Both the position numbers and the translations under genes were made by a program. This document shows, in pieces, positions 1,805-46,796 of a stretch of 48,330 bases of DNA. Origin of the DNA: a virus; the IMG/VR virus record IMGVR_UViG_3300024307_000004, positions 1 to 48,330 of that record. One strand, 5' to 3'. The notes beneath the pieces were generated by a model, which made no database searches, had not been told where the DNA came from, and saw nothing but the letters and a program-made list of their open reading frames with translations. Positions within the stretch are counted from its first letter, which is position 1, and each line of letters opens with the position of its first letter.

Positions 1805-1856
1805 ATCGTAAATCCTTATTAGCAAGTTGTATGCCACATTGATATGTGTTCATATA

Positions 1857-2735
1857 TCACAATGAATTGATACCGAGCACTTGCTTACGTAGAAACCAGT
1901 GCTGCATTTGTCGAATGTTACCTCTCAGTTGTGCTCGATTGTCATGCAAATATTGAGCATCCTCTTCTGTTCCACCATAAGCCTTTGCAAGTAGGATGAA
2001 ATCTTCGAGACAACGCTCACGCATTGGTTTGATTTCTACTTCGAACACAGCAAGACGGAAATACAAATCCATACGGAACTCACCATCATTGACGGCAGTC
2101 CACAGATGTTTGTGTGTAGCACTAATGAATCGACAGGAAATCTCTTCGTCTTGTGTTGAACCAACACGACGAACTGTCTTGTTCTGAATAGCTCGCAATA
2201 ACTTTGGTTGCATTGCTTTCGGCAAGTCGCCAATCTCATCAAGGAAGATTGTGCCATCGCGCGCATCTTGAAGCAATCCTATCTTATCAGTGTAAGCACC
2301 AGTGAATGAACCCTTGGCATGACCGAACAGTTCAGACTCGATGAGATTCTCACTGATAGCAGCGCAGTTCACAGCGACGAACTTGCCATGTCGTGTATTA
2401 TGCATAGCGCGGGCAATGAGTTCTTTACCCGTTCCGCTCTCACCATGAATGAGAACAGGATGTTGCAATGGTGCAAGTTTCTTGACATGTTCTTTCATCT
2501 CAACTAGAGCAGGGTCTTGTGTGATGAATCTGTCAAGCCATGTCATTGAAGGCTGACCGGGCTGCACAGTTGCAGGAGCAGGCGGAGCCTTCGGGATTTG
2601 CAAGGTCATCTTGCGGGCCTCATGTTCATTGATAACATTGGCAGCCTTGAAGATGTTGATACGTTCTTTACCGGATGATGCACGAAGTTGCTCTCTGAAC
2701 TTGCGCATCTCTTCTGCTTTTTGTTCTGGTGTCAT
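1857..2735 (-). CDS. sigma-54-interacting AAA+ ATPase (enhancer-binding-protein core without HTH)
   Basis: This is the central ATPase domain of a bacterial enhancer-binding protein, which in the known family remodels sigma-54 RNA polymerase closed complexes by ATP hydrolysis. In its 292 residues, Walker A is GESGTGKE (98-105), followed by ESELFGHAKGSFTGA with the sigma-54-contacting loop as GSFTGA (142-147). Walker B is FLDEIGD (164-170), arginine-finger candidates are Arg221 and Arg227 (FRMDLYFR), and there is a WPGNVREL-like RGNIRQMQHW (271-280). The protein stops about 12 residues later, so the usual C-terminal Fis-type HTH is absent. The first ~65 residues are a short charged helix and a Pro-rich linker, not a receiver domain. 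The start overlaps the upstream stop (ATGA). Three near-consensus sigma-54 promoters in the window, one heading this operon, support a transcription role. The ATPase family is sure; the regulatory role is inference. Confidence 0.93.
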   Translation of the reverse strand: MTPEQKAEEMRKFREQLRASSGKERINIFKAANVINEHEARKMTLQIPKAPPAPATVQPGQPSMTWLDRFITQDPALVEMKEHVKKLAPLQHPVLIHGESGTGKELIARAMHNTRHGKFVAVNCAAISENLIESELFGHAKGSFTGAYTDKIGLLQDARDGTIFLDEIGDLPKAMQPKLLRAIQNKTVRRVGSTQDEEISCRFISATHKHLWTAVNDGEFRMDLYFRLAVFEVEIKPMRERCLEDFILLAKAYGGTEEDAQYLHDNRAQLRGNIRQMQHWFLRKQVLGINSL

Positions 2736-6861: not shown

Positions 6862-7314
6862 TCACGATCCTTTCTCCATCAATTTAGCCATCTCAATCTT
6901 TCGAGCTTTCTCGATTAGAGCTTTCGGATTATTGCACATCGGCATGAACATCTTCTCAGCCTGCGCTTTATTTCCCGGAAATACTTCAAGAAAGAACTGC
7001 ATCACAACACTCTTCGCATGTTGATACGCTAGCTCATCTTCTAACAACTTCGCTTTGCGTTCTTCATCAGCGAGAGTTTTCGCAAATGAACGATGCCACT
7101 CCGCCTTTCGATAGATACAAATCACTCCTCGTTTTGTCACGTGCACGACGTGATGTAACTCGTCTGGGTCAGCATCACGCAACGACCTAACAAGTTCGTG
7201 ATCCATACCATCCACTTCTTCTCGCTCGCTCATCGGGTTTGCTCTCGTCATCAAGTCGAGCAGAAGTTTGATAGACACCGAACACATAGATTGATTAGCT
7301 GTATTGGATTCCAT
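6862..7314 (-). CDS. first gene of the sigma-54-promoter operon, hypothetical (150 aa)
   Basis: I do not recognise the family. It is a soluble, highly charged and mostly helical protein with a possible coiled segment (FAKTLADEERKAKLLEDELAYQHA) and a Met-rich C-terminal region. The start at 7314 is about 28 bp downstream of the predicted transcription start of the minus-strand sigma-54 promoter at 7353-7369. It therefore leads the operon that continues through helicase, ligase, activator and nuclease. No strong Shine-Dalgarno is seen, and internal ATGs at codons 10 and 22 are possible alternatives. Confidence 0.7.
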   Translation of the reverse strand: MESNTANQSMCSVSIKLLLDLMTRANPMSEREEVDGMDHELVRSLRDADPDELHHVVHVTKRGVICIYRKAEWHRSFAKTLADEERKAKLLEDELAYQHAKSVVMQFFLEVFPGNKAQAEKMFMPMCNNPKALIEKARKIEMAKLMEKGS

Positions 7315-7352: not shown

Positions 7353-7369
7353 AGCATTTGCCATGCCAA
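7353..7369 (-). promoter_or_regulatory. sigma-54 (-24/-12) promoter for the leftward replication/activator operon
   Basis: The minus strand reads TTGGCATGGCAAATGCT against the consensus YTGGCACG-N4-TTGCW. The -24 GG and -12 GC are separated by exactly 10 bases, with one mismatch in each element. It lies in an intergenic gap after the terminator at 7388-7420 and before the gene starting at 7314. The predicted transcript would include the phage's own sigma-54-type ATPase. Confidence 0.65.
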
Positions 7370-10656: not shown

Positions 10657-10761
10657 AAACACAGACAGGATTTGAACCTGTATGAGAAATTTTTGCGTTT
10701 CCTCGCCATTGGCTAAGGTTTCTCTTACACAGTTAGCGTCTACCAATTCCGCCACTGTGTT
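10657..10761 (-). tRNA. atypical tRNA-Leu-like gene, anticodon not assignable
   Basis: The 7-bp acceptor stem AACACAG/CTGTGTT is perfect, the D arm is GCG-GAATTGGTAGA-CGC as in class II tRNA-Leu, and the T arm is ACAGG-TTCAAAT-CCTGT. Between D and T arms there are ~54 nt that do not fold into a normal 5-bp/7-nt anticodon arm plus variable arm. A GCTAA/TTAGC pairing encloses a 16-nt loop, and GAGAAA can pair with TTTCTC. No CCA is encoded. It could be a degenerate tRNA, one with an insertion in the anticodon loop, or a tRNA mimic. Confidence 0.55.
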
Positions 10762-10778: not shown

Positions 10779-10906
10779 TGAGCGCGGCAGGATTTGAACC
10801 TGCATGACTATTGTCAGAACATTTCGGCATAGGTTGACCGATGTTTTTCAATCGTGATTCTATGGCTTACGCTGTTTCTTGCGTCTTTACATTCCGCCAC
10901 GCGCTC
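10779..10906 (-). tRNA. second atypical tRNA-Leu/Ser-like gene with expanded middle
   Basis: The acceptor GAGCGCG/CGCGCTC, D arm GCG-GAATGTAAAGA-CGC and T arm GCAGG-TTCAAAT-CCTGC are all intact, with A as the discriminator and no encoded CCA. The region between D and T arms is ~77 nt. It contains TGAC-AATA-GTCA just before the T arm (a plausible variable arm) and a long CATAG...CTATG hairpin enclosing CGAT...ATCG. The total of 128 nt is far above normal. It lies 17 nt upstream of the first tRNA-like gene, in tandem. No anticodon can be assigned with confidence. Confidence 0.5.
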
Positions 10907-11116
10907 ATTCTAAAAGAGTTTCACCAGAGCCAGTGCGTATTTCTGGCTTGCATCATCTACGGCATCTTTTCTGAGTTATCAATTCAGTGTGCTTTCGCTG
11001 ACTTACGATGCAATAGGCAGCTACATCCGCGACATGATTGATAATTTCATGTCTAGTTCGCTTTTGTTCATTGCCTGGCCCGTCCGCGCCGGGCTTGTCT
11101 GGTGAAATAAAGTTAA

Positions 11117-14035: not shown

Positions 14036-14052
14036 CTGGCATAGATGTTGCG
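14036..14052 (+). promoter_or_regulatory. sigma-54 (-24/-12) promoter of the packaging/structural operon
   Basis: CTGGCATAGATGTTGCG matches YTGGCACG-N4-TTGCW with an intact TGGCA, intact TTGC and exact GG-N10-GC spacing (GG 14038-14039, GC 14050-14051). It is intergenic and is the last sequence before the first rightward gene. Predicted transcription would start near 14063, just before the 27-codon leader ORF. Confidence 0.7.
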
Positions 14053-19028: not shown

Positions 19029-19360
19029 TGACAAAATCACTACAAGAAATGGCAGCGGATTACGATGAACACCTTCGTAATGGAGGCTCTGCAAATGTAG
19101 AGTTCGAGAAGAAACCAGAGCCATTTGATGAAGTTGCGTTTGCTGCATCGCAGCAGAGTTGGCTTGGTCACAGCTTCACAGAAGAGTTCATGACTGAACT
19201 TGAACGTCAATCTGCACATCTGATTGCAGAGTCAAAAGATTTAGCAACGCTTGATGAATCTAGGTCTTCGTCGAAGATCAGGGCGATGCTATTGGAGAGT
19301 AAAACGCTGGATAAAGTTATTGCTTATGGACGCAGAAACAAACACAACACAAGTTACTGA
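19025..19360 (+). CDS. hypothetical protein between portal and scaffold (111 aa)
   Basis: This is an acidic, helical small protein. Its ATG overlaps the portal stop and its last 35 bases overlap the scaffold gene, so it is part of the head-assembly operon. The composition (MTELERQSAHLIAESKDLATLDE) suggests a soluble assembly factor; no family is recognised. Confidence 0.75.
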   Translation: MMTKSLQEMAADYDEHLRNGGSANVEFEKKPEPFDEVAFAASQQSWLGHSFTEEFMTELERQSAHLIAESKDLATLDESRSSSKIRAMLLESKTLDKVIAYGRRNKHNTSY

Positions 19361-20486
19361 ACAGCCCGCGGGTAGCGTATTTGATACGCCTCCTGTCATT
19401 GAAGTTCCAACTCCTGCTGCTGAGGCACCGGCAGCAGAGGCTCCTGTCGTTGAGACAGAGGTCACACCCTCAGTGCCAGAAGGAAAAGTCAAAGTTGTTC
19501 CTGACGATGTTGATGGAGATGCTCTTGAAAAGTTTCTCAAGGGTGAATCAGATGTCGATCCGACGCTAAAGCCTAAGGCTAAGGAAGAGGAGGAAGAAGT
19601 TCCTGTTCCTGCCCCCGCTGCGCCTCAGCCTCAAGCTCAACCTCAGAAGTCTTCTGCACGTGACTACACTGGACTTAATGAAGATGAAGTGAAGTTGTTC
19701 AAAGGAATGAGCAACGATGCTTACAAAGCATTGTATCCCAAGTATCAGGAGTTTAAGAAGGTCGAAGAGAAGCGTAAAGAACTAGAAGAGCGAGAACTCA
19801 AAGTAAAGACGGCTGAACCAAAGTCAGTTTACGACCACGAGCGGGCTTATGAACTAGCTCCCGCATTTCAGTCGAAGGCTCAGGAGGTTCAAGCTCTCCA
19901 GTTTGAATCGAAGTTCTGGCAAGACCAGTATGCGAAGTGTGAATCCGGTGAAGACTGGCAGCCTCTCGAAACAAACGAGAGAGGTCAATACGTTGCAGGA
20001 AAAGCTCAGCCCGCAACTCCTGCCGCAAAAGCCCAACTGTTGCAACAGCTTACACTAGCCACGCAGTATCGCTCGCAAGCAGAGCAAGAGTTGAAGCAAA
20101 TTGCGGGCAGTTATTCACAGCGCAGGAATGAGATTGTGTCTGGTATCAAATCCTATGAGAAGAAATACTTTCCGTTCTTCGAGGATCCAAACTCTCCTCA
20201 TCAAGCAACAATCAAGAACATTCTTCACGCTATCCCAGAAGAGATGCGCGATCATCCTCTTTCACCTTTCCTTGCGAAAGCGATGGCCTGCATTCAGATC
20301 TTGAACAATAACAATCAAGCCCTCACAAAACAACTATCCGCAAAGGCTGCAATTAAAGCAGATGCGAAGAAGGCTGGCCCGAATATGTCCAGTATAAACT
20401 CTAGCTCACCATCTGGGTCTAAAGGAACTGCCGATGTCGAGAACATGACAGTCGAGCAGCTTGATAAATTCATGCGAGGGACATAA
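19326..20486 (+). CDS. capsid scaffolding protein
   Basis: This is a probable internal scaffold guiding capsid assembly. The start MDAETNTTQVTEQPAG at 19326 is the first sensible ATG. The 386 residues are rich in Glu, Ala, Pro, Lys and Gln: an acidic Pro/Ala N-terminal third, a long charged coiled region (KKVEEKRKELEERELKVK; LLQQLTLATQYRSQAEQELKQIA) and a short C-terminal helix (VEQLDKFMRG) of the kind that contacts capsid protein. It lies between portal and the major capsid gene, as usual. Confidence 0.82.
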   Translation: MDAETNTTQVTEQPAGSVFDTPPVIEVPTPAAEAPAAEAPVVETEVTPSVPEGKVKVVPDDVDGDALEKFLKGESDVDPTLKPKAKEEEEEVPVPAPAAPQPQAQPQKSSARDYTGLNEDEVKLFKGMSNDAYKALYPKYQEFKKVEEKRKELEERELKVKTAEPKSVYDHERAYELAPAFQSKAQEVQALQFESKFWQDQYAKCESGEDWQPLETNERGQYVAGKAQPATPAAKAQLLQQLTLATQYRSQAEQELKQIAGSYSQRRNEIVSGIKSYEKKYFPFFEDPNSPHQATIKNILHAIPEEMRDHPLSPFLAKAMACIQILNNNNQALTKQLSAKAAIKADAKKAGPNMSSINSSSPSGSKGTADVENMTVEQLDKFMRGT

Positions 20487-20781
20487 CACAACACAACATT
20501 CAGCCTCGCTACAAACCCAACTGTGAGCTAATCCCTCCGGTTGGGTTATGCGTTCTTTGGCGCGAGGAGTAGTGTTGCGGGCGAGGAGTCCCGGAGGGTT
20601 CGGCTCGAAGCAAGGGTGTTGTGCACGCTGGAAGTTGCGTGTGCTTTAGCCCGAGCGTGCCGAAGCCGGGACACTCGCTGAGTCGAGCAAGCGGTCGCGA
20701 AGACTGCGGCGTGCTGAAGCCAGTTGGCGTGCGCGGCAACGCCGCAAGGCGTTGCAGCACGCCGAACAAATCATTTATGAT
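20487..20781 (+). other. GC-rich, hairpin-filled non-coding region before the capsid promoter
   Basis: This stretch is clearly richer in G and C than its flanks and holds several inverted repeats. AACCCAAC/GTTGGGTT pairs at 20514-20521/20540-20547. A very strong stem at 20726-20763 has two 7-8-bp arms and a GCAA tetraloop. AAATCAT-TT-ATGATTT lies at 20768-20783, touching the promoter. The strong stem may stop readthrough from the packaging operon, though no U tract follows. No protein frame is convincing. Confidence 0.55.
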
Positions 20782-20798
20782 TTGGCACGGCTATTGCT
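20782..20798 (+). promoter_or_regulatory. consensus sigma-54 (-24/-12) promoter of the major capsid gene
   Basis: TTGGCACGGCTATTGCT is a perfect match to YTGGCACG-N4-TTGCW, with GG at 20784-20785, GC at 20796-20797 and exactly 10 bases between. It is intergenic and correctly oriented. Transcription from about 20809 would give a ~150-nt leader before the capsid ATG at 20960. Confidence 0.85.
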
Positions 20799-20959
20799 CT
20801 AGCTACAGGTGCTACTAAACAGTTCGCAGGGCAGCGAGTGGATTTGCTACGTTTCGTTGCAGGGCAGCAACCCGCGTTGTTTGAATCACGGTAACGATTC
20901 AATCTGGGTTTAATTCTGTCTCGCCCAGCATAAGTAGATAGAAGAAAGTCGAACTGTTT
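20799..20959 (+). promoter_or_regulatory. structured 5' leader of the capsid transcript
   Basis: Downstream of the sigma-54 promoter the leader can form small stems GTTGC/GCAAC (around 20858-20873) and GAATC/GATTC (20882-20899). A purine-rich AGAAGAAAG lies 12-20 bp before the ATG at 20960 as the only ribosome-binding candidate. Such leaders can stabilise an abundant mRNA; this is inference. Confidence 0.4.
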
Positions 20960-22261
20960 ATGCCCACTGGATTGCCCTCTATTGATAACGACGCTTGCAC
21001 GTCGTGGACGGAATTGGATCGGGACCGCTATAATAAGCTCCCGGTTTATTTCCAAAAGAAACAAGCTGAACAACTCAAAACCTGGGCTGTTTGGTCCAAG
21101 CTGCTAGGTTCCCGTAACTGGGAACAAAACATGGGTAACCTTGGTAAGGTTATTCAAAAGGAGTTTTCTCCGCATCTTCGTTCAACTGCATTTCCAGTTG
21201 CGCTTAGCTCTTCTGCGAAGAAAGACATCATTGCTGTTCGGGAGCGCGCTACTCCGTTTAGCTTGCGTCATCAAAAGTTTGAGTCGCCGATCTTCAACTT
21301 CTTGCCTAATTTCCAGGATTTCTTGAATGACCATGTTGACTTCACTCTTGAGAATATCAACATGCAGGTTTCGCGGTTTATGGATGTGTTCGCTCGGACA
21401 CACATTTTCCATCAGTCGCGCTATCTGATGATTCCAAATGGTGCTGGAACTAACAACGATGGTATCTATCTGGCTCCTCAAGGTGATGGTAACTCCACTG
21501 GCACTTCTGGTAAGACCAATGCTTACCTTGCTGCTACAATCGCTGGCATTGCCAATGTCGGTAATCTGAGTTTGAACGCGATCAATCTCGCGTGCTCTCA
21601 CTTGGATGATCAGCGTATGCCTGCGTTCAAGGGTAATTCACTTCCTTCTGGTGATAACTCTCCTCTGGATCAGAAGTTCTGTCTTGTTCTTGGTAGCGAT
21701 ACCTACAACCAGTTCATCTATGATCCGTGGCTGTTGAGTTACAAGCAGATTGATTTGAACATCATCACTGCTGGTTTCACTGGCAGTCTATTTGGTCGTG
21801 TCATGTGTAAGCTCGAAGATATGCCTCTTCGTATCGCGTTTGACACTACGCTCCAGCCCGGCAATCCTGATGCGTATTCATTCCCTGCTCCAGAGACTCA
21901 AGAGTTGAATCCTGATGCAGAGAACTATGGTGAAACCATTCCGAATCCTGCTTACGTCAATGCTCAGTTTGAGGTTGCGTTCTTGGTTTCTGGTGGTAAG
22001 CCGTATGACATGCTCCGTGTTGGTGCTCCTCCGAAGAACTTCTCTTCGATGCCTTGGAATGGTCGCGTTATCATGACTGATAACGTTGCTGTTCCTTGCA
22101 CTGATGAGAATGATCAAACTTATTGGGACACCAATAAGTATAAGGAATACCTCCAGCTGATCTCTCATGCTGTTCTTGGTATTGTTGGAACTCAGAAGCG
22201 TGGTGTGCTTCCGATTCTGTTCCGTCGTTTCCGTGGTGCTCGTAACCCTGTTGCCGCGTAA
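20960..22261 (+). CDS. major capsid protein
   Basis: The assignment rests on size (433 aa), place right after the scaffold gene, a dedicated consensus promoter, and a composition typical of an HK97-fold capsid protein. It has a charged N-terminal helical arm (YFQKKQAEQLKTWAVWSKLLG), a central beta/alpha core with N/G/T-rich loops, and a basic C-terminus (GVLPILFRRFRGARNP). No signal peptide is seen. Codon choice is strongly biased (GGT, CGT, CTT/CTC, AAG), as expected for a highly expressed gene. Confidence 0.82.
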   Translation: MPTGLPSIDNDACTSWTELDRDRYNKLPVYFQKKQAEQLKTWAVWSKLLGSRNWEQNMGNLGKVIQKEFSPHLRSTAFPVALSSSAKKDIIAVRERATPFSLRHQKFESPIFNFLPNFQDFLNDHVDFTLENINMQVSRFMDVFARTHIFHQSRYLMIPNGAGTNNDGIYLAPQGDGNSTGTSGKTNAYLAATIAGIANVGNLSLNAINLACSHLDDQRMPAFKGNSLPSGDNSPLDQKFCLVLGSDTYNQFIYDPWLLSYKQIDLNIITAGFTGSLFGRVMCKLEDMPLRIAFDTTLQPGNPDAYSFPAPETQELNPDAENYGETIPNPAYVNAQFEVAFLVSGGKPYDMLRVGAPPKNFSSMPWNGRVIMTDNVAVPCTDENDQTYWDTNKYKEYLQLISHAVLGIVGTQKRGVLPILFRRFRGARNPVAA

Positions 22262-22942: not shown

Positions 22943-23368
22943 ATGCTACCTCAATTTCCTCCTCCGCTGAATAGCAGTGATCCGATCAATGTCAAGGTGA
23001 CAAATGATCAGCCTGTTACGCCATACCTTCGGACTGCAATTTCAAATAGCTGGTATTCTTCTGCTGTTATCTCGAAGGCTGCTGGAATGCCCGGCATTCA
23101 TCTGGTTTCTCTTGTTGGCTATAATAAAGGTGCTGCTCAGTGGCTGCATATTTTCGATGCTGCTGCCCTTCCTGGAAATGGTGCGGCTCCATTCATGATT
23201 ATTGCCCTTGCTGCTAATTTTCAGTTCTTTGTGGATTTGCCTGCTGAAGGGTTTATGTTTTCTGATGGAATTGTTATTGCTGTTTCAACAACTGAAACAA
23301 CGCTTACTCTTGGTGCTGCTGATGTGAAGTTGGCTTATGGCACAAAATATAGTCCTGTTACACAGTAA
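22943..23368 (+). CDS. phage structural-type protein (141 aa)
   Basis: The pattern GYNKGAAQWLHIFDAAALPGNGAAPFMIIALAANFQFFVDLPAEGFMFSDGIVIAVSTTETTLTLGAADVKL resembles an unnamed beta-sandwich family that recurs in phage head/tail modules, often annotated as hypothetical structural protein. The N-terminus is Pro-rich. It lies between two secreted-type genes and ends one base before the next start. A decoration or fibre-base role is inferred. Confidence 0.65.
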   Translation: MLPQFPPPLNSSDPINVKVTNDQPVTPYLRTAISNSWYSSAVISKAAGMPGIHLVSLVGYNKGAAQWLHIFDAAALPGNGAAPFMIIALAANFQFFVDLPAEGFMFSDGIVIAVSTTETTLTLGAADVKLAYGTKYSPVTQ

Positions 23369-23369
23369 T

Positions 23370-24047
23370 ATGAAATCTCTACTTATTTTGTTACTGTTGT
23401 CTGCTGCTTGTGTTAATGCAGCAGTAGGACCGGGAAGTCCAAGCGGCACTGTAATTCCTGGAGGTTCGACGAACGTGGCGCTGTTGAGCGGGACAAATGT
23501 TTTCAGCGGAACAAACACGTTCAGCACCAACACGGTATTCGGGACGAACATCGTTGGCGACTTTGTGACGGTTGGCTCGCGTTACCGAACGATTTACGTC
23601 GGTGCATCTAACTACTTTACCGGCACGCCGAGCACACTGGAGACAAACATTTACGCCTCGATCACGCTTCCTCCGCTCATGTCGGAGAAATCTCAGATTT
23701 TGTGTGGATACAGGACATCCAAAACAAATATCACGACGCAGCCTGTTTGGTGGTGGGAATTTCGGGCGGACACCACTAATGGCACGGTGGTTGCAGGGTT
23801 TGGGGCGTTGACGGCCACATCTTATTGGCAAGCCACTACTCCAATCACATTCGTCATGGAAAACGAGGGTTTCAATTACCAGTTTGTTGGGCCATTTTCA
23901 GGATATGTGTCAACCGTCGTTCCATCAGTGATGAATTGGAACACGTTGGCCTCAACGAATGTTTTGCATGTGTTGCTCCACCACGGAAGCGCCGCCAACA
24001 CTGATCCCATCACGGTAAGATCGTTTGTTCTCGTTGAAAGATACTAA
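23370..24047 (+). CDS. exported beta-rich protein with SGTNTFS repeats (225 aa)
   Basis: The signal peptide MKSLLILLLLSAACVNAA is followed by a Gly/Pro/Ser linker and short repeats (LLSGTNVFSGTNTFSTNTVFGTN). A beta-rich globular part follows, rich in Trp, Tyr and Thr (WWWEFRADTTNGTVVAG). The ATG overlaps the end of the upstream gene region (stop TAA 23366-23368). The repeats resemble tail-fibre or surface proteins of phages and Verrucomicrobiota-type secreted proteins. The function is unknown; a host-surface or adhesin role is possible. Confidence 0.65.
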   Translation: MKSLLILLLLSAACVNAAVGPGSPSGTVIPGGSTNVALLSGTNVFSGTNTFSTNTVFGTNIVGDFVTVGSRYRTIYVGASNYFTGTPSTLETNIYASITLPPLMSEKSQILCGYRTSKTNITTQPVWWWEFRADTTNGTVVAGFGALTATSYWQATTPITFVMENEGFNYQFVGPFSGYVSTVVPSVMNWNTLASTNVLHVLLHHGSAANTDPITVRSFVLVERY

Positions 24048-34411: not shown

Positions 34412-37400
34412 ATGCCAACTCCTCTTTCTCAAGACGAGATCAACGAGTATATTCGCCTCAAAGGATTTGATCCTGCTGAGGCTGATCTCGACATGTTCAC
34501 TGGTGAAGTCAAGCCAAAGCAAAAAGCGCAACCCGCTCTCTCGACTCCAGAAGCTCCCGCTCCGTCGAAGAAAGAAACGTTTTGGCGTTCGACTGCTTTA
34601 AGTGTTCTTCCTTCTGCTGCATCATTGCCAGTTGGTGCTGCTGTTGGTATGAAAGCTGCGGCTGCTGCTGCGCCATTGGCAACTGTTCCATTCGTTGGTC
34701 CAGCAATTCCTGTTGTTGCAGGCCTTGGTGCTGGCTTACTTGCTGGTGGACTAGCAGGTGCTGGTGCAAGTCAGGTGCAACAGAAAGTTCTGGAACAATC
34801 AGAAGGGGGCCAGAAGTTCTTGGAGCGCGCTGCATTAGCTCGTGAGACGAATCCGATCACGTCTGCTGTTGGTGATGTGGCTGGTTCATTACCATTGATG
34901 CGAGTAAATCCGAAGATGTTGGGAGATGCTGCGAAAGCTCTCACAACTGAACGTGCTGCTGGCGCTGGATTGCTGAATAAGCTCGCTAATCCTGCTGTTC
35001 AGGAAATCGGAATCTCTGGAGCACTTGGTGGTGGAATGAGTGCTTACGAAGATATTCAAGAAGGTAAAGACGTAAATGTTGGAAAGGCTCTCGTCAACAC
35101 TGTCCTGCAAGGACTCGTGTCAGACATTCGACCGGGAGTTGCTTCTCGTATTCCCGGCCTTCGTGGAACATCCTACACAGGATTGCCGGGTGCTGAGCCC
35201 GCAGCTGAAGGGTTTATTCCAAATCGTGTCGCAACTCCAGTGGAGCCTTCTCCTGCTGATGTTGCCGCAATCGCCAACGAGCGGGCTGGACTTGAGATAA
35301 AGCTCAAGGGTGTCGAGGATTCTCTCAAATCTGTCGTCGATGAAGCTAAACGCGAACAGATTCAACGTGAAGCGAAAATCGCACTAGCTGAACTCGAACT
35401 GAAGAATCGCGAACTTGCTGCCCGCGAACAGGCTTTGCGAGAGAAAGTCACTTTCGAGGCTTCTCCTGAGAATGTCGAGTGGGCTAAACAGATGGCGGCT
35501 GCAAAGGGCGCAGATGAATTTGTTGCTGAGCCAACAGGAGTTCTTGATGCGACAAGTGGTAAGACTTATGGCGCGTTGTCTGTCTCACCAGAAGGAAAGC
35601 GTTCAATTCGTGCTAGCACAACTGCTGCTGAAGAGTCTGCGAAAGGTGAGATTTCTACGACGTTGCCAGAAGGTTTGATTCGTGATCAAGAAGGAACTGC
35701 TATTGGACCTCGTGCCAGCACTCTCGTGCATGAGAATCTGCACAATGATTTCCTGAACATGATTCAGTCGGATCGTGCTGCACAACGTAAGATGGGCACA
35801 CAGATTCTGGACGCAGTCGATAAATCTCCTGAGTTCGCTGAATGGAAATCGAAGCAGACGGCTGAGAATCTTTCGCGGATGCCTGATCCTCGTGAGGAGT
35901 TTTTCGCTATTGAGGCGTCGAAGCAGTTCCTTCGTGATCCTGAGAACAAAGGACGCACTTGGCGTGGTGAGCGTGCTGCATTGAAGAATCTCCAGACCGG
36001 CAAAGGTGGATTGCAAGACGCAGTGCAAATTGGTTTGATGAAGTTCCGATATGATCGTGGACTAAATGCAAATCTCACGAATGTCGCGAAAGCGGCTGGA
36101 GCCAAAGCATCTCTCGCTTCTGACGTTCGATCTGAGATTGAGCGTCGTGAAAAGAATCCAGAAATGGAACAGATGGAATTCCGTAAGACTGCACAAGAAG
36201 GAAGCCCATTGAGCAAGTATTTGCGTGATACTGAAGAGTTACCTCCAAACACCTTCTTGCCAAAGAAGGGTCAGATGGAAATGCGTTTGAGTCAGCCCGC
36301 TCGCGAAGCGAAACTTGGGCCTTCTGAGTCTCTTTTCTTCACGACGGAGGATAGCCCTCTCAAGAAGAAGTTCTTTGAGAAGTATCCTCTCCTAAAGGAG
36401 ATCAATCCTAATGGATGGCCAAAGAAGTATCTCAGTGAACTCTATGGAGTTGATCGTCGTCGCATCAATGACTTTGAGAAAGCACGCGAACAAACAACTG
36501 GAAAGCCTGTCGACTGGAAAGAAGTGATTGACGGCAATCTTTACGATCCTAAACGCTATCCAAAGATGGAGCGTGTTGAGGGCAAAGTGCAAGCTGTTCG
36601 TGATGAAGAAGGTGAACAAGTAATGCGTGATCGCCCCACGAAAGAAGTTTTGAGTGACTTCACTCCCGGTGTGCAGCGTGTTATCCGTCAAGGGGTTAAT
36701 CGTGCTGTTGAGCCGTTGCCTTCTGCTAAGGCAGGAATTCGATTTGCAATGCTTCGTGCTTTGGAGAATCCTGATAACAGTCAATATGGTGGCGACAAAG
36801 ATTACAGAAAATTGCTTGAGTCTCGTGTCGCACGCGAGATTTCACAGTCTGGAATTGATGTCGAAGGAAAGAATACAACTGACAAAAATCTGTTCATGAC
36901 GGCTGCCCGCACTGCACAGCGTTTGATGCGTGCTGACTTCATGCTAATGCGTGCGAAGAAAGAGGCAGCGAGACGTGAGGCTGGAATTGAGGATGAGATG
37001 GTTCCTATTGTAGCTGGTAAGGTGCGTGATGTAGCTGTTATTGATGACATCAAGAAACAGCTGCAAGAGAACTATCGCAAGTTCGACAGTGATCAAATCG
37101 ACGATGATACTTACGAGACAACTCTCACGTCACTCGAAACGAAACTGAAGGATGCTGGACTTTCGCGTGACGAGATTCTGGATATTGTGTCTGATGCAGA
37201 AACTCCTGCTGAGGTTGTTGCAGTGAAGCCTTCTGCCACACCAGCAAAGAAAACGAACACAGTCGCACAGACACGTGAGACTGTCAAAGAACTGCTTGCT
37301 AAAGGCATCATCGACAAGGACGAAGCCGCTCAATTAAATCGCGAACTTGCGGGCATGAAGGATTCGGATACAGTGAATCTGCCTGAGTTAATTGCTGATA

Positions 37401-40400
37401 TTCGACGTGGTGGGGCGGATGAAGTTAAGTATCAGCCAGATGAAGACCGTTATTCACTTCCCGCTCAGCGTCAAACACTGACTGACGAGAAAGACATCTT
37501 CGTCACGGATGTTCAGAAACAATTCGAGTCTGGTCGTCCTTATGGATTGCAAACGTCGAAAGACGGGAAGTTTGCTTCGTCAGATATTCTCGCGAAGCTT
37601 CGCAATACTCCGAAGGTTGAACAAGAGTTGCTCGGTAAAGACTTCACGGATTGGCTCACTGTGCGGAGTCGTGTCTCTCCTGAAGAAGTGAAGGAGTGGT
37701 TGGATAAAAATGGACCGAAAGTGGAAGTCCATAATTATGGTATGGAAGGGAAAGTGAGTGAGGCGAAGAAAGAGTATGATAGGATGACGCATGAGTGGGC
37801 TGACAGAAACCTAACGCCTGATGCCAGAGAAGATATGCGCCACTATGAAATGGCACACAAAAGACAGAACAATGACCTAGTAAACACCTTCGCGAAAATA
37901 CTAACTGAGAGGTATAAACTAAACCTAGATGATGTGCATAAATACCTAGCACTAGAAGATAAAGTAAAAAGTGAGCGTGCAAAACAAAAAAATGAACTCC
38001 GCGCCACTTCTGCATACGACACTGTCTCCGCTTTCGACACAAACCAACCAATGCCAGAGTGGACTGCTAGCAAGAGCAGGAAGAATGTGCAGAGAGTGGA
38101 TGTGGTGGTGCCTGAAAGCAAAGCTACAACCAGTAAAATAAGTTACGAAGACTATCTACGACAAACTGCGCGAGTAGATAATGAATACTCTCGTAATGCC
38201 TATGAACAGCAAGTAACAGGCAATAAAAGGCTGGATACTAAACAACTCTGGCAACCCGACAACCTCCATGAAAACCTCCCCAACACTTTAGGATGGGCGA
38301 TGATACAGTATAAGGATGGCCCGAAAGAACTGGCAGGAATGGAGTGGCAAAATGCTGACAAGCGAGTGCTAGTAACTAAACGTCTGCCAAGTGATACTGA
38401 CTCAACTCTACCATACCGAGTAACTGAAATATGGAAAAAGAGTGGAAACCCTAAAGGGCATGGATATGCTGAAACACTGGCTGATATAAAAGAACACCTA
38501 GGAGAAATAGATAACAGTGGTGAATGGAAGCTGATAAAAGATACTGAACCCAAGAAAATAGCGGTGATTGCAGAGGCACAGAGTAGGTGGGGGCAGAAAG
38601 CGCGCAAACAAAAGGCAGACATAGATAAACTACAAATAGTAGATAAAGGAGACTACTGGGAAACTAATGACCCAAGTGGAGCTAAAGTAAGACTGGATAA
38701 ATCAGACTTCCCAACAAAAGAATCTGTGGTAAAGTGGTCTCTGCCAAACCGTAATACTCTAGACCACCCCCTCCTCCGCGACTACAACCGTCTAATCCTC
38801 AAAGCTGCAATCGACCAAGCACGTAAAGAAGGTGCAACGCATGTGATGATTTCGGATGCAGAGACGGCGATGATGACAGAGGGGCATGATGCACACACAC
38901 AGGCAAGTGATACTGTAGGAAACTATGGAACTCGTGGAGAAGCTGAATATAAAGCACAACAACTAAAACAAGAGGGTAAAAGTGCTAAAGTAACAGAGGG
39001 AGACGATGCTACATGGTATGTGGAGACTATATCCCAAGAACCCGGCATGCGTCTCAACTACGACACAATCCTACCAAAGATTGCAGAAGACCTCACTGGC
39101 ACTGAAGGAACTCGTGTGTCGTTGGGGGAGCATAAGAATGCTTTTGATAACAGACACATGTCTGGTGGAACAGAGCTTGTCGATAGAAATCTACCCGGTG
39201 ATGCACCAGTAAAGCCTAGAGACAACCTCATCTTCCGCAATCCAGACGGAACTCCAAAGACTGACGTCTCAGGCTTGCTCTACGACATCTCTGTTCCTGC
39301 ATCTCGTCGCGAATCTGGTGAGAAGTTCACATTTGGTGGGCGACGTTTCTCTACGCCATCCTCTCGCGAAACCCTCTCTCCTCGTGCAACCGAAGAAGAT
39401 CGAATGAAGAAAGGTTTCATCGAAGCCTTCGCTCCACAATTTGACAAGGTTCCTGACAAGCAAGTTTCCGAAGCAATGAAGAACATGGACACTCAACGTT
39501 CCATGTATCTCGGTGCTTGGCATTATGCTCCCATCAAAGAGTTCCAATCGAAGTTCAAACACATGCCCGAGGATCGTCTCAATGTGATTTATGATCGCGT
39601 TCTCGAAACATATCGCAAGGGCAAGAAAGATCTCATCACAGAAGGGCTAACGTCACAAGAGATCAAAGCAGCGAACTTCCTCAACGACAACGTCTATCGT
39701 GCTGTTCGTGGCAAACAGAAAGAGATCGGAATGAAGGTCGAAACGCGTGAGGGCTTACGCCGTGAAGCGAAACTCTCTCCGTGGTATGTGCCAGAGATGC
39801 TCAACGACAAAGCTCTGCAAGCCTTCACGAAAGGTGATCAGTCTGCTACTGCTCAGCGTTATATCGACATGTGGGCTGATCATGTTGTTGACCAGTCCGC
39901 AGGGACGGTGACAAAGAAAGAAGCCCTCGAAGAAATCCGTAACTATGTCGCAGCAATCGGTGAAGGTGGACGTCGTGGCACAGAATTTGGTGCACTGCGC
40001 AAAGCTGCTGGATATGGACTTCCGAAAGAACTTCGTGAGCGTAATCTCCTTCGCGTGACTCAACGCTATTCTCGTCGTGCTGCCCAAGACGTTGCTCGAT
40101 TCCAACATCTCGAACTTCCCGAATATATTCGTAACAAACTCGCTCTGCCTGATCCTGACACTGGAGTTGTTCACACGCAGGATTCGATCCTTCACATCGA
40201 AGACGTTCGACAAGCGATGAAGTTCGTGAATAATTCCTTCGAGATTTATCACAACCCGCGAGTTGCGTCATTTGCACGGCTCGTCACGAACGGAATACTC
40301 GGACCTTTGACGGGCATTCGTGACTTCATGTCGATTCCTGTCAATGCACTGCCTTACGTGAAGGCGACTGACATTGGCACGATCTTCACATCTCTCCTCG

Positions 40401-41710
40401 ATGCTCGTCGTGATTGGCAGAAATCGCTGAAGACTGGTGCTCGCACTGGAATGAATCAACTCGATGCAGTTGACACGATTCCGAATCTCGACAAGACAAC
40501 TTACGCATTCAATGTCGCATCTGAGATGTTACGTAAATATCAAGGTCGTGACGCAATCGAACAGGTTAACCGTGTCTGGACTTACTCCATCGGGAAAAAC
40601 CTAGCAGAGCGTGCTGTTCTTGAGAAGAACAAGACGTTCCTCGAAAAGTTTGGTCGTCTCGCAAAAGATGAAGCCACTGGCAAATACAACACAGACATCA
40701 TGGCCAAGAACTTCGTTGATCGAGTTCAAGGCACTTATGGCGGTGCTGGTTTGCCTTCATCTTCTGTTGATGGAATGGCTGCCCCTTGGTTTGCACTTGC
40801 CCGCTGGTCACTTGAGAAATCGAATGTCATCTGGCAAGATGTGATTCAACCTGCATACCGCAAGAACAATCCGCAGTATGGCCCTCTCCTTCGGTATGCT
40901 CTCGGTGCTTACCTCACAGGTGAAGCAATCGACTTGCTCGTGGAAGAAATCAATAGTGGTAAGAAGTCGAACATTCCAACCTATGCCGAATTGCAAGCTG
41001 CTGACGCTGACCCAGAATCCTATGTTGCGAAACTCGTGAACGTGATGCAACTCGGATCATTTGCGGGCATGGCTGGTGATGTTGCGAAAATGGCAATGGA
41101 TGCATATCGTGGCGAGAAACCACAAGGATTCAGTGTTCCTGCTGCGACACTGATTTCTCAAGGAATTGGTGACACTGTTGTGAACTTCTCACGTGCTGTT
41201 CGTGACGGAACTGATCCTCTCGACGCTGCTGGAATCCTCATTCTCGAACTGATGAAGAATCAAGTTCAGACTGCTCGCCTTGTTCTTAATGCAGCTGATA
41301 ACGAGGACGTTGATCGCAAGAATGCACTACGCGATTTGCGCTTGTATAAACAAATGCGTGGCGAGATTCTCCCTTCCGATTTCCAGCGGGCTAATCCTGC
41401 AATGCGTCCTGAAGAGCGTGAATTCAAACGTGCGAAGACTGAAGAGGAAGCTGGAGCTTCACTGCAAAATATCATCGCAAACTTACAGGAGGAATTCAAA
41501 GGCGATCCTCGCGGGTTGAGGAAAGCCCTTGATCGCTTGAAGAAGAACTCATATCAGACGTTCCCGAACTTGGAGCTTGACCCTGCGGGTGCTACAGAGT
41601 ATTATCAATACCTGATCGAATCGCTCGGACCTGTAGAAGCGAAAAAACGCCTGGATGATTATATCAAACAGACGTCTCTCAACAGAGCTAAAACTGCTGC
41701 TATCCCCTAA
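34412..41710 (+). CDS. giant internal virion/ejection polyprotein with HExxH motif (2432 aa)
   Basis: By order and size this is the gp16-like ejection protein expanded to a 'large polyvalent' protein. Visible regions: an Ala/Gly hydrophobic segment (~77-120); a charged coiled region (~300-355); a zincin-type TLVHENLHNDF with His440-Glu-x-x-His444 and a downstream EEFFAIEAS that may supply the third ligand; a region ~1110-1545 whose codon use differs from the rest and which resembles polyvalent-protein-associated domains (AEAQSRWGQ; LLRDYNRLILKAAIDQARKEGATHVMISDAETAMMTEGHD); and helical/hydrophobic regions in the last ~500 residues. It may cleave or pierce the cell envelope during DNA entry. 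No lysozyme or transglycosylase motif is obvious. It is convergent with, and overlaps by 11 bp, the minus-strand ATPase gene. Confidence 0.8.
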   Translation: MPTPLSQDEINEYIRLKGFDPAEADLDMFTGEVKPKQKAQPALSTPEAPAPSKKETFWRSTALSVLPSAASLPVGAAVGMKAAAAAAPLATVPFVGPAIPVVAGLGAGLLAGGLAGAGASQVQQKVLEQSEGGQKFLERAALARETNPITSAVGDVAGSLPLMRVNPKMLGDAAKALTTERAAGAGLLNKLANPAVQEIGISGALGGGMSAYEDIQEGKDVNVGKALVNTVLQGLVSDIRPGVASRIPGLRGTSYTGLPGAEPAAEGFIPNRVATPVEPSPADVAAIANERAGLEIKLKGVEDSLKSVVDEAKREQIQREAKIALAELELKNRELAAREQALREKVTFEASPENVEWAKQMAAAKGADEFVAEPTGVLDATSGKTYGALSVSPEGKRSIRASTTAAEESAKGEISTTLPEGLIRDQEGTAIGPRASTLVHENLHNDFLNMIQSDRAAQRKMGTQILDAVDKSPEFAEWKSKQTAENLSRMPDPREEFFAIEASKQFLRDPENKGRTWRGERAALKNLQTGKGGLQDAVQIGLMKFRYDRGLNANLTNVAKAAGAKASLASDVRSEIERREKNPEMEQMEFRKTAQEGSPLSKYLRDTEELPPNTFLPKKGQMEMRLSQPAREAKLGPSESLFFTTEDSPLKKKFFEKYPLLKEINPNGWPKKYLSELYGVDRRRINDFEKAREQTTGKPVDWKEVIDGNLYDPKRYPKMERVEGKVQAVRDEEGEQVMRDRPTKEVLSDFTPGVQRVIRQGVNRAVEPLPSAKAGIRFAMLRALENPDNSQYGGDKDYRKLLESRVAREISQSGIDVEGKNTTDKNLFMTAARTAQRLMRADFMLMRAKKEAARREAGIEDEMVPIVAGKVRDVAVIDDIKKQLQENYRKFDSDQIDDDTYETTLTSLETKLKDAGLSRDEILDIVSDAETPAEVVAVKPSATPAKKTNTVAQTRETVKELLAKGIIDKDEAAQLNRELAGMKDSDTVNLPELIADIRRGGADEVKYQPDEDRYSLPAQRQTLTDEKDIFVTDVQKQFESGRPYGLQTSKDGKFASSDILAKLRNTPKVEQELLGKDFTDWLTVRSRVSPEEVKEWLDKNGPKVEVHNYGMEGKVSEAKKEYDRMTHEWADRNLTPDAREDMRHYEMAHKRQNNDLVNTFAKILTERYKLNLDDVHKYLALEDKVKSERAKQKNELRATSAYDTVSAFDTNQPMPEWTASKSRKNVQRVDVVVPESKATTSKISYEDYLRQTARVDNEYSRNAYEQQVTGNKRLDTKQLWQPDNLHENLPNTLGWAMIQYKDGPKELAGMEWQNADKRVLVTKRLPSDTDSTLPYRVTEIWKKSGNPKGHGYAETLADIKEHLGEIDNSGEWKLIKDTEPKKIAVIAEAQSRWGQKARKQKADIDKLQIVDKGDYWETNDPSGAKVRLDKSDFPTKESVVKWSLPNRNTLDHPLLRDYNRLILKAAIDQARKEGATHVMISDAETAMMTEGHDAHTQASDTVGNYGTRGEAEYKAQQLKQEGKSAKVTEGDDATWYVETISQEPGMRLNYDTILPKIAEDLTGTEGTRVSLGEHKNAFDNRHMSGGTELVDRNLPGDAPVKPRDNLIFRNPDGTPKTDVSGLLYDISVPASRRESGEKFTFGGRRFSTPSSRETLSPRATEEDRMKKGFIEAFAPQFDKVPDKQVSEAMKNMDTQRSMYLGAWHYAPIKEFQSKFKHMPEDRLNVIYDRVLETYRKGKKDLITEGLTSQEIKAANFLNDNVYRAVRGKQKEIGMKVETREGLRREAKLSPWYVPEMLNDKALQAFTKGDQSATAQRYIDMWADHVVDQSAGTVTKKEALEEIRNYVAAIGEGGRRGTEFGALRKAAGYGLPKELRERNLLRVTQRYSRRAAQDVARFQHLELPEYIRNKLALPDPDTGVVHTQDSILHIEDVRQAMKFVNNSFEIYHNPRVASFARLVTNGILGPLTGIRDFMSIPVNALPYVKATDIGTIFTSLLDARRDWQKSLKTGARTGMNQLDAVDTIPNLDKTTYAFNVASEMLRKYQGRDAIEQVNRVWTYSIGKNLAERAVLEKNKTFLEKFGRLAKDEATGKYNTDIMAKNFVDRVQGTYGGAGLPSSSVDGMAAPWFALARWSLEKSNVIWQDVIQPAYRKNNPQYGPLLRYALGAYLTGEAIDLLVEEINSGKKSNIPTYAELQAADADPESYVAKLVNVMQLGSFAGMAGDVAKMAMDAYRGEKPQGFSVPAATLISQGIGDTVVNFSRAVRDGTDPLDAAGILILELMKNQVQTARLVLNAADNEDVDRKNALRDLRLYKQMRGEILPSDFQRANPAMRPEEREFKRAKTEEEAGASLQNIIANLQEEFKGDPRGLRKALDRLKKNSYQTFPNLELDPAGATEYYQYLIESLGPVEAKKRLDDYIKQTSLNRAKTAAIP

Positions 41711-43307: not shown

Positions 43308-43534
43308 TATCGTTTAGATAGAAATGCCCGAATCAAATTCAATGCACAGGACTCCTTTGCCATGCGAATTCTCTCACTTAAAGGCAGCTTATAGCCTCCA
43401 AGAGAAAGCTCTATCTGAGCAATTAGGGTCTCTTTTTCTATTGTGGTAGAAGCCCTTACGAGCATCACAGGTTTAGGACACTCAAGATCTTTACTCAAAT
43501 CAAAATCCTCAAATTTAATCGTAATTTCATTCAT
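43307..43534 (-). CDS. small hypothetical protein (75 aa)
   Basis: The N-terminal part is acidic and beta-like (NEITIKFEDFDLSKDLE) and the C-terminal half is a basic helix (LSERIRMAKESCALNLIRAFLSKR). It overlaps the polymerase stop by ATGA and the ATPase start by one base, so it belongs to the replication operon. No family is recognised; it is of the size of a helicase/polymerase accessory factor, but this is a guess. Confidence 0.65.
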   Translation of the reverse strand: MNEITIKFEDFDLSKDLECPKPVMLVRASTTIEKETLIAQIELSLGGYKLPLSERIRMAKESCALNLIRAFLSKR

Positions 43535-44556
43535 AGCTTTATCTCCTTCAAACCCTCTGGATTCTTCTTCTCATGCCAAGGTGCCCAATTCTTACCGATT
43601 GAAGCCTCACTTCGCATTCTAAATTTCTCGCCCCGTGGGGCAGTCATTTCGATCTCGATGAACTCTTTCATCTTCTTCGCGACTACTTCAATCGTTTCTG
43701 TAGGAGCTTGAACCAGATACGAGTCATGGCAGTTATTGAGTATGACCGCGCTAGGACAAGTAGTTTCGATCCATCGTTGCATCTCCACAACAGCAAGGTT
43801 AGTAATGCAACCAACAGTGGATTGGGGTATGAACGCATAGGCTTCTTTTGGGTCAGTGACTAGTGAACAGAACTTTCGTGGATAACCAAACAAATTGCGG
43901 AGTTCTCCTTTCTGTTCGAGTGTGTTCATCACAACTCGATGGAAGATGTGGAGTTCTGGAAAAGCTACGTCACGATATGTTGAGAGGAATTTGTCAGCTT
44001 CTGCACGTGTGATAACTACTTTGCCCTCTGATTTTTCGAGGAGGTTTTGTTGGAATGTGTTGCCCATGATCCCGTAATTTCCAGAATGACAAGTCTGCTT
44101 GTAGAAGTAATAATACCTCGTCGAAGTGTGTGGAGAGTTATCCGATGCTGCGACAGCTTTCACAAAGGCTGTCCAATTAGGGTGATTCTTTAACTCAGCA
44201 ATTTTTATGCTAGAGAATTCCTTCACCATTGGGAACTCTTTCATCCAGTGTTCTGGAAAGAACACACCAATGTAGACATGTGGTTTGATGCTGTTCAAGA
44301 ACAAATCACGAAACCTGCCGGGAGGACAGAGGTAAGCAACAATCAAGGCTTCTGCGCCCGCTTGGTCCACTTGGCAGAAGGATGTTCCCTCGTCTGCAAT
44401 AAACAACTTGCGCAAAGACTTCTCAATGTTCTGTGCGTTGCCGCCATACTCGGGGCCGTAAGCGGAAACTTGTTTCTTGCCCTTAGCGAAGAGCTTACCA
44501 CTTCCGAGACGGAAGGTGTTGGTGCGAGCAAGACGGAAGCAACTCGTGTATCTCAT
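43531..44556 (-). CDS. DNA polymerase family A, palm/fingers half (split gene)
   Basis: This is the catalytic part of a Pol I-type replicase. In its 341 residues, it begins with RYTSCFRLARTNTFRLGSGKLF, the start of the palm, equivalent to the TGRLSS region. Motif A is CQVDQAGAEA (Asp64), the fingers O-helix region is YKQTCHSGNYGIMG (~152-165), and motif C is NNCHDSYLV (His277-Asp278-Ser279). Motif C is HDS where most Pol I enzymes have HDE. The exonuclease and thumb are in the separate gene at 45243-46796, with two small genes between. The ATG at 44556 overlaps the upstream stop as TGATG. Confidence 0.92.
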   Translation of the reverse strand: MRYTSCFRLARTNTFRLGSGKLFAKGKKQVSAYGPEYGGNAQNIEKSLRKLFIADEGTSFCQVDQAGAEALIVAYLCPPGRFRDLFLNSIKPHVYIGVFFPEHWMKEFPMVKEFSSIKIAELKNHPNWTAFVKAVAASDNSPHTSTRYYYFYKQTCHSGNYGIMGNTFQQNLLEKSEGKVVITRAEADKFLSTYRDVAFPELHIFHRVVMNTLEQKGELRNLFGYPRKFCSLVTDPKEAYAFIPQSTVGCITNLAVVEMQRWIETTCPSAVILNNCHDSYLVQAPTETIEVVAKKMKEFIEIEMTAPRGEKFRMRSEASIGKNWAPWHEKKNPEGLKEIKL

Positions 44557-44981
44557 CACAAAGCCCTCATCCTATAATCGACTTGATAGTCAGTCACATG
44601 CCTTGATACGAACGCAACAATCTCAGCATAACACTTTGGTGCTCGTGACTTCAATGGGCCAGACCACGTGGATGTTCCAATCGTTGGATCACACACGACA
44701 TTCACTGGTTTCATCCTCTCAATCTTCTGTCGAATATCTCCTTCGTATGCTCTATTCAAATGGTCCTTAAGAACTTCGAGATACAATCTGTCGTCCCAGA
44801 AAGAGATCTCATCCATGCAAGGTTTGATCTTGACAGGAACTCGAAAGACGTTCGGAAACATGACGTAAGGAGCCGCTTCGCCACGAATTTCTGCGGGCTT
44901 CAAAGAGTCTCCAAAGATGAAGAGTGTCGAAGTGTTCGACTTGACGTAGTTAGGAGTGAGTTCTGGAGGGATGTTAAACAT
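44556..44981 (-). CDS. insert gene between polymerase halves: [14 protein letters not shown] family (141 aa)
   Basis: The sequence [38 protein letters not shown]...[19 protein letters not shown]...[28 protein letters not shown] follows a phage/bacterial family of unknown function. Its members have FGDN near the start, a central GIPTK-like segment and a final GLGTG...RAP..(F/Y)..I. Here the final part reads [16 protein letters not shown]. The start MFNIPPEL at 44981 overlaps the previous stop by 8 bp; an upstream start at 45098 would overlap much more. It is inserted between the two polymerase halves together with the SEC-C protein gene. Confidence 0.65.
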
Positions 44982-45246
44982 AACAGCATCTCTTGTATTT
45001 CTTTCCACTTCCGCAAGGGCAGGGATCATTACGTCCAACCTTAGGAGGAGCAATGTAAGGCTTTGTTTCTGCTTTATGTCGGTATCCTTTAGTCCCAATT
45101 CTGTGGATTTCTTTCAGAGCTTGGTGCATTCTAGGATCATTCTTCCATGATTCCTCATTGAACCAAAGTCCACAGTTATCACAATATTTCTCTTTGAGTT
45201 GTGTCTCTAAGATAGTAGGTTTAATACAATGACAGCTATCACTCAT
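44974..45246 (-). CDS. SEC-C zinc-motif protein inserted between polymerase halves (90 aa)
   Basis: The C-terminus [18 protein letters not shown] is a textbook SEC-C motif, the zinc-binding tail known from SecA and many small proteins. The N-terminus has a second cysteine group (CHC...YCDNCG) like a zinc ribbon. The ATG at 45246 overlaps the stop of the polymerase exonuclease half (ATGA), with GGAGA upstream in that gene's end. This gene therefore starts exactly where the polymerase breaks. Its role is unknown; a nucleic-acid or protein-binding adaptor is plausible. Confidence 0.82.
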
Positions 45247-46796
45247 AAATATGATTTCTCCGGCCAACTGTTGATGTTTCCAAGGAAAGACGTTTCTTTT
45301 CGCACCCCTGCAAATTTCAATCGAAGATCGATAACAGGATTCTCCACACCAGATTTCGCGAGTGCAAGTTTCATCTTCAGCATCGCACCTGCGTCACAAG
45401 CTGGCTCGCCAGAATCAGTCTTATATGGGACTTTGTATCCGAGCATCGTGTAGAAATATCTTGCTGCTTGCTTGTTCGATGACAACAGACTCGCATCACT
45501 CTTGCCCTTCAACAAATCGAAGACTTCCTCGCCCACGAGAATGCGAACCATTCGTTGCAATTGCATCATGTATCGGTCATTCTCTGACACGATCTCTCGC
45601 AAACGAACTTCATCCATCTTGATACCCTTGAGGGTAGCGACAAGGTAAGGATAAATCATCGATTGAGCTTGCTCGATTGAGGCTTTCAGTCCTGCATCTT
45701 TGTCACACTCATTATCAAATGCCTTCTTCAAATCTCGCATTGCATAAACGTCCTTCGCGTTATACAACCAGAGTTGACGTTCTTGATCTGTGTTGTGCGG
45801 ATTGAATACACCTTCATCTTTGTGATAAGGCTCATCTGTCCAGAGTGACAAACAATGACCGAGAGACTTTTCAGCTTCTGGATAGCAACGATTGTGCGAA
45901 ATCATCGTATCGTATAGATTCTTGCCGAATGGAATACGATAGTGATGCGCTAATACGAGCCAATCGAATCCGTGTCCGTTATGTGATACGGTAAGGTTGT
46001 CTCGCATTGCAATGGATAATACGCGCAAGATGCGTGACGCCTCCACTTCTCCGTAACCGAGTGTGTAATCATACCTTCTAAATGGAAATACATATACTGG
46101 ACCCTCTTCAAAGCAGAAGCCAATGCAAGTGAGCGTTCTGTCAAAGGTAGTTTCGATGTCCAGATAGAACGTATCCCCCTTTTTACTTTGTAAGACCTCC
46201 ACAAGTCTGCTCGCAGGCGGATAGAGCACAGGAGCAGGTCGAACGCTTCGATGCAATCCTTGCTTGAGTATTCTGCCAACTTTTCGGATGTCACATCCCA
46301 ACCAGAATTTGTAGTTTTGTCGTCGTGTCGATCCCTTGTGGCCTTTAGCCTCATCATCGTCGGGTGCCTCAGAATCTTCACGAGGTCCACTGTGGTGTGG
46401 ATTGAGTCGAGCTTCATAGTTTTGTAAATCGTAACAATCTTGAGGAAAGAAAGAGGAGATATAGATGATGTCTTCGCCCGCGTTCGATTTGATATGTGGC
46501 GATCCGCGCTGCTCCGAAAGGCTGTGCTGCGGGCTAAACCATTTCTGCTGCGCTGCCTGACCTAGACACAGAACAACTTTCGTTCCCGGTAGAAGTGGAG
46601 TCTCCACATCCATTGTCCGTATGTCACACTGATAACGATTCAACCCAATACCACGAAGTGCCGTATCACAAAACCACGTTCCAGCATTACCGGATAAGAG
46701 TTGTTTGAAATCGAATCTCGAAGGGTTCGAGAGGATGATTGTCAGACCTTTATATCCTAGCTTTGGAGGATGGTGAAATGATTTTGGAGTAGGCAC
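45243..46796 (-). CDS. DNA polymerase family A, N-terminal/3'-5' exonuclease half (split gene)
   Basis: In its 517 residues the DnaQ-like proofreading exonuclease is clear: Exo I YLDIETT (Asp213, Glu215), Exo II NGHGFDW (~273-279), LYDTM (Asp296) and Exo [12 protein letters not shown] (345-353). Residues ~16-130 ([13 protein letters not shown]...[14 protein letters not shown]) recall the uracil-DNA-glycosylase-like fold fused to some phage polymerases; this is tentative. Thumb-type sequence follows to [20 protein letters not shown], where the frame stops just before the palm. The palm is encoded at 43531-44556. The start seems to be GTG at 46796. Confidence 0.88.

Follow-up and report, generated by a model that had tools for sequence, protein, structure and literature searches.

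A candidate sigma-54 promoter, activator gene and leader RNA for capsid expression in a lineage of uncultured phages

The capsid locus and its late module

We report the analysis of a candidate sigma-54-dependent promoter before the major capsid protein (MCP) gene of a phage genome, here called the window, which is an IMG/VR virus record analysed over its whole stretch of 48,330 nucleotides and whose relatives are uncultured phages. Between ORF 19251-20486 and ORF 20960-22261 lies a noncoding gap of 473 nt, which holds, on the + strand at 20782-20798, the sequence TTGGCACGGCTATTGCT, 161 nt upstream of the MCP ATG. This sequence agrees with the -24/-12 consensus of sigma-54-dependent promoters, including its GG-N10-GC, and places the predicted transcription start of the capsid operon at about 20809. 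It is the single match in the window to YTGGCACG-N4-TTGCW, a pattern for which 100 dinucleotide-preserving shuffles gave no match at all, and a scan of the gap before the MCP gene for a sigma-70-type promoter or an intrinsic terminator found neither. The original prediction had described an exact fit to the consensus, intergenic, on the right strand, some 160 bp from the capsid ATG and rare by chance, and on each of these points the present analysis agrees with it.

That the downstream gene encodes a capsid protein had been assumed. The 433-aa product of ORF 20960-22261 (+ strand) gives no family match and has no relative among isolated phages in a search of 50,697 phage records. An AlphaFold2 model, made with 30 sequences as input (pLDDT 78), finds HK97-fold major capsid proteins as its best PDB matches, that of phage N4 first (E 2.5e-10); the predicted fold supports the assumption and we take the product to be the MCP. 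In the relatives the gene order is terminase-portal-ORF19251-MCP wherever all of these lie on the contig, and the late module ends with an ORF of 2432 aa at 34412-41710 that has a homologue in 26 of the 31 genomes compared below.

Elsewhere in the window the DNA polymerase is split into ORFs 43531-44559 (-) and 45243-46796 (-), with another ORF in between. The polymerase cluster, both parts combined, has 46 members in 27 genomes, and a divided polymerase seems to be common among these phages. A tRNA-like gene at 10657-10761 (-) has an Rfam tRNA match of 34.6 bits and a long insertion, and a second, at approximately 10783-10915 (-), has D- and T-arm sequences similar to those of the first; ARAGORN, run on the window, found neither.

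The original prediction also drew attention to a GC-rich hairpin before the site, and this is indeed present, with arms at 20733-20743 / 20748-20758 and 20707-20716 / 20755-20764. It sits within a strongly structured, noncoding island of about 64% GC (approximately 20550-20780, in a genome of 46% GC), and folding of the whole 473-nt gap gives z = -5. Most relatives have ordinary gaps of lower GC at this place, so that the island was rejected as a conserved feature and the hairpin, belonging to it, forms no part of the conserved promoter. The island, which returned no match in an Rfam search, may be an insertion or an unidentified RNA.

Sigma-54-type sites in the window and its relatives

Searches with the MCP or TerL as single proteins returned only identical contigs, and a terminase alignment that included Akkermansia phages was needed to find relatives. 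Contigs nearly identical to the window are present in the IMG samples 3300024494 and 3300028265. The terminase alignment yielded 80 IMG/VR loci. An MCP homologue is present in more than 50 of these, and 31 dereplicated MCP relatives, at approximately 29-47% identity to the window, form the first comparison set. The check that had been proposed for the site, alignment of the upstream region in related phages, gives a clear result here: a strong site (at least 14 bits) stands in the 300 nt before the MCP ATG, on the coding strand, in 29 of the 31, as against 0/31 for a strong site on the opposite strand before the MCP gene and about 2% in random windows. The weights of the scoring matrix were assigned by hand, a weakness of which de novo motif search is free; such an unbiased search returned TGGCA-N7-TGCT as its top gapped word, present in 28 of the 31 MCP upstream regions, whereas the best gapped word within the MCP genes reached only 10. 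Since the surrounding leader DNA is highly diverged, selection appears to act on the sigma-54 site itself.

A second set, for which relatives were selected through the MCP rather than the terminase, comprises 80 viral loci and two genome-bin loci, on contigs that are partly the same as those of the first set. Among its 69 unique leaders, 57 have a site of at least 13.5 bits and, of the remaining 12, eight share CTGGCATATCGTTAGCA and four have lost the site. The L053 cluster has kept the capsid gene and leader and lost the promoter. In the cluster of L266, L275, L278 and L280 the MCP sigma-54 site is lost and both of the AGGGCA hairpins described below are kept. As for the genome-bin relatives, L090 falls in a Deltaproteobacteria bin and L091, a relative with promoter and AGGGCA hairpin, in the bin of a Methanoregulaceae archaeon; archaea are not known to have sigma-54, and L091 is therefore probably misbinned.

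The genome-wide scan demanded GG-N10-GC, which makes these four bases invariant by construction, and its matrix favours the other consensus positions too. With a loose pattern allowing two mismatches the window shows no excess of sites (36 found, 30.5 expected), whereas matrix sites of at least 14 bits number six against 1.65 expected. Over the 31 phage records, 183 sites were found, compared with 12 in the reversed sequences, and 109 of the 183 (60%) fall in noncoding DNA, which averages only 8.4% per record. Three placements recur. The first is before the MCP gene (27 of 30, plus G026). The second is on the same strand as the terminase large subunit gene and approximately 500-1360 nt upstream of it (19 of 31 genomes), represented in the window by a weaker sigma-54-like site, CTGGCATAGATGTTGCG, at 14036-14052 (+), upstream of the terminase operon. 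The third is at most 900 nt downstream of the activator gene discussed in the following section (21 of 28), where the window has GTGGCATACAACTTGCT at 1821-1837 (-), just past that gene; this last site is less certain in the window because its predicted start would be separated from the likely ATG by a mere 6 nt or so and would lie past the ribosome site. Two further putative sites of the window are the near-perfect ATGGCACGGTGGTTGCA at 23779-23795 (+), inside ORF 23337-24047, and TTGGCATGGCAAATGCT at 7353-7369 (-), upstream of the leftward ORF 6862-7314. In the Akkermansia phages, taken for comparison, the activator is absent and 52 kb hold no site; other TerL relatives that lack the activator are mostly short fragments and have a few matches, so that the control is only partly informative.

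A phage-encoded activator and sigma-54

ORF 1857-2735 (-) encodes a predicted sigma-54 activator of 292 aa, an AAA+ ATPase with Walker A and B motifs and a GSFTGA loop that ends at sensor II and matches PF00158 with E 1.2e-62, as well as PHROG 7998, a family listed as of unknown function. A PF00158 activator gene is found in 28 of the 31 records, the exceptions being three fragments of 21-26 kb; each of the 28 records that reach 31 kb or more has both the gene (AAA+ with a GxFTGA-type loop) and sigma-54 sites. Walker A and B, a GxFTGA-type loop (with a few variants) and the arginine of sensor II are conserved in the 28 proteins, which stop shortly past sensor II. Most are 235-306 aa long, with one of 355 aa; in some the AAA+ domain comes first, and in others it follows a short N-terminal stretch of variable sequence that the model shows as helical and to which no class was assigned. 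The phages thus encode what a sigma-54 promoter requires, a sigma-54 activator, and the original reading of the site as such a promoter gains strong support from comparison, both from this gene and from the conservation of the site across a diverse phage clade.

The phage proteins resemble the bacterial activators NtrC, FleQ and PspF in their AAA+ Walker motifs, GxFTGA loop and fold, the model (pLDDT 91) matching NtrC4, FleQ, NtrC1 and PspF, and the promoters share the consensus of those systems. They differ from them in their setting, a phage in which they would drive the capsid and terminase operons, and in architecture: the phage activator has neither a receiver domain nor the C-terminal Fis-type helix-turn-helix (HTH) that is present in most, though not all, bacterial enhancer-binding proteins, and HTH families searched in 27 members gave no match. 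Sigma-54 activators without a DNA-binding domain exist in bacteria, namely Helicobacter FlgR and Chlamydia CtcC. These likewise lack the C-terminal DNA-binding domain and are expected to act from solution; the phage protein differs in having no receiver domain and in being phage-encoded. It is likely to be always active and to have no need of an enhancer.

Homologous activator-like ATPases do occur in other phage genomes, as PHROG 7998 and the AAA+ protein of the human gut phage MT121960 (L297) demonstrate. The latter, at 20001-20618 of an unrelated phage, resembles sigma-54 activators with its GAFTGA intact, and its Walker A is altered; in the 38.7 kb of this phage that were examined there are no sigma-54 sites, and it has no recognisable relative of the MCP or terminase. 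The activator matches among the 50,697 phage records are mostly to records resembling host sequence.

Two relatives, G013 and G015, encode among their phage genes a 429-aa protein with the three sigma-54 domains (activator-interacting, core-binding and DNA-binding), its gene close by that of the activator. This full-length phage sigma-54 lies at 4499-5788 of L165 and at 3387-4676 of L171 (the records of L028 and L039). In both G013 and G015 the MCP site is CTGGCATATCGTTAGCA, and TTGGCACA-N4-AAGCT precedes the sigma-54 gene by some 50-60 nt, which suggests, from few sites, a shifted -12 preference and autoregulation of sigma-54 in these phages. A diverged repeated motif, sought in the two genomes, had too few sites to be defined and was set aside.

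Taken with the site itself, these observations make it very probable that 20782-20798 is a working sigma-54 promoter of the capsid operon and an element of a late-gene switch run by the phage. An improbable alternative is that the promoter is real but driven mainly by a stress-sensing activator of the host, similar to NtrC or PspF, with the phage AAA+ protein serving another role. The phage protein has no recognisable DNA-binding domain and sigma-54 hosts carry many activators, as this alternative would have it; nevertheless, activator gene and sites co-occur in every examined record of at least 31 kb, the sites often stand directly behind the activator gene and the phage AAA+ domain has kept the loop that contacts sigma-54. 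It is more improbable still that some other phage-specific factor reads the motif and that its likeness to sigma-54 sites is only apparent, for although conservation alone does not name the reader, the -24/-12 consensus match, the conserved activator and the two relatives with a full sigma-54 all point to sigma-54.

The leader RNA and the proposed late switch

Downstream of the predicted start, MCP leaders carry a tandem element in which each unit consists of a box, GCTWCTA, and a hairpin with an invariant AGGGCA hexaloop. In the window, unit 1 (20811-20839, +) has the box GCTACTA at 20811-20817 and the hairpin GTTCGC-AGGGCA-GCGAGT at 20822-20839, and unit 2 (20845-20871, +) has the box GCTACGT, with two mismatches, and the hairpin GTTGC-AGGGCA-GCAAC at 20856-20871; several of the phages nearest the window have loops of GAGC or GGGC type instead. 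The 31 genomes contain 41 hairpins with the AGGGCA loop, about 35 of them before the MCP gene; control loops of similar composition gave 5-11 and the reverse complement, TGCCCT, gave 47. Stem pairs 2-4 are canonical in 58-59 of 60 unique units, with all four Watson-Crick types represented, and the fraction of canonical pairs over 42 unique units of 16 nt is 0.90, compared with 0.48 +/- 0.03 when the 3' arms are exchanged. The box usually precedes each unit, typically 12-19 nt before the loop, and is found with at most one mismatch within 40 nt of 68 of 78 units, as against 8.7% of shuffles. At least one unit occurs in 42 of the 69 unique leaders and at least two in 33. An Rfam search with the element returned no match, and we regard the hairpins as a new conserved RNA family. 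A perfect 11-nt complementarity in the window between the start of the leader (20816-20826) and the stretch that directly precedes the ATG of the MCP gene (20950-20960) was considered as a long-range pairing and rejected, as it is not conserved in relatives (mean 5.08, compared with 5.06 with partners swapped).

The units probably act on the transcript once it has been started, in antitermination or in control of capsid translation. For the former we see about an even chance: the units would be a nut-like (boxA-boxB) signal that renders the polymerase resistant to termination along the late operon of approximately 21 kb. In the lambda nut (boxA-boxB) and HK022 put RNAs, a single-stranded box and then a small hairpin with a fixed loop stand close to where a phage operon begins, and the leader units resemble them in order and position; box and covarying hairpin are both seen here, in sequences that differ from those of lambda. 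The invariant loop, the covarying stem and the usual presence of two units near the 5' end of a long operon transcript speak for such a signal. Against it, the box GCTWCTA differs from the E. coli boxA, GCTCTTTA, the element is confined to the leader of the MCP gene and no antiterminator gene was noticed. Lambda nut also differs in that the leader loop is AGGGCA (or of GAGC type), the units are usually two and the promoter is of sigma-54 type.

Somewhat less probable is a protein-binding site that controls capsid translation or mRNA stability. This would account for the near restriction of the units to the MCP leader (about 35 of 41) and for their retention in the promoter-less cluster, where they lie close behind the upstream gene; the units are, however, located approximately 40-140 nt upstream of the ATG, away from the ribosome site. 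The geometry of the hexaloop is similar to that of CsrA sites, but CsrA needs GGA in the loop and the leader has GGG. CsrA/RsmA sites as such were rejected, AGGGCA being without GGA and no CsrA gene being found in the phage records. On balance we place antitermination slightly ahead of a capsid-specific role in translation or stability.

Under the phage-run switch that we favour, host RNA polymerase with sigma-54 would bind 20782-20798 and wait there as a closed complex. The phage AAA+ protein (ORF 1857-2735), lacking a recognisable DNA-binding or receiver domain, would contact sigma-54 through its GxFTGA loop, hydrolyse ATP and open the promoter, such that transcription of the capsid and terminase operons would have to await synthesis of the activator. 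The capsid transcript would start at about 20809 and its first part would be the two box-plus-hairpin units. The genomes show the conserved promoter, the activator gene with its motifs and the covarying hairpins; from them we infer the use of the sigma-54 holoenzyme in the cell, the enhancer-free action, the timing and the role of the hairpins. A still broader proposal, which we hold tentatively and at slightly less than even chances, is of a self-contained programme across the lineage: a sigma-54 late switch worked by a stripped-down, enhancer-independent activator, in some phages a sigma-54 of their own together with changed -12 elements, and a nut-like RNA in tandem units that modifies the polymerase for the capsid operon.

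The original prediction was right about the site and passed over the gene for the activator, the other conserved site, which precedes the terminase operon, and the RNA hairpins, which lie just downstream of the predicted MCP start site. As read from these genomes, the find is larger than it had proposed, namely a lineage that combines a probable sigma-54 late switch with a phage activator, in some members a phage sigma-54, and an RNA element conserved in the leader. In the open-access literature, to which the search was confined, we found neither a sigma-54 late switch in a phage nor a phage that depends on sigma-54 reported.

Alone among the modes of bacterial transcription, that by sigma-54 remains silent until an activator driven by ATP is present, and it is thereby naturally suited to tight switching. 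Phages are known to inhibit host RNA polymerase, as T7 Ocr does (PMC7064336). A large family of uncultured relatives of the window also appears to switch its capsid genes on through sigma-54. If true, this would be a new principle of phage late control, in which phage production is tied to rpoN hosts. It would further suggest a function for the PHROG 7998 family, and would offer synthetic biology small activators and, possibly, pairs of sigma-54 and promoter that are orthogonal; the leader hairpins add a candidate RNA family whose role is directly testable.
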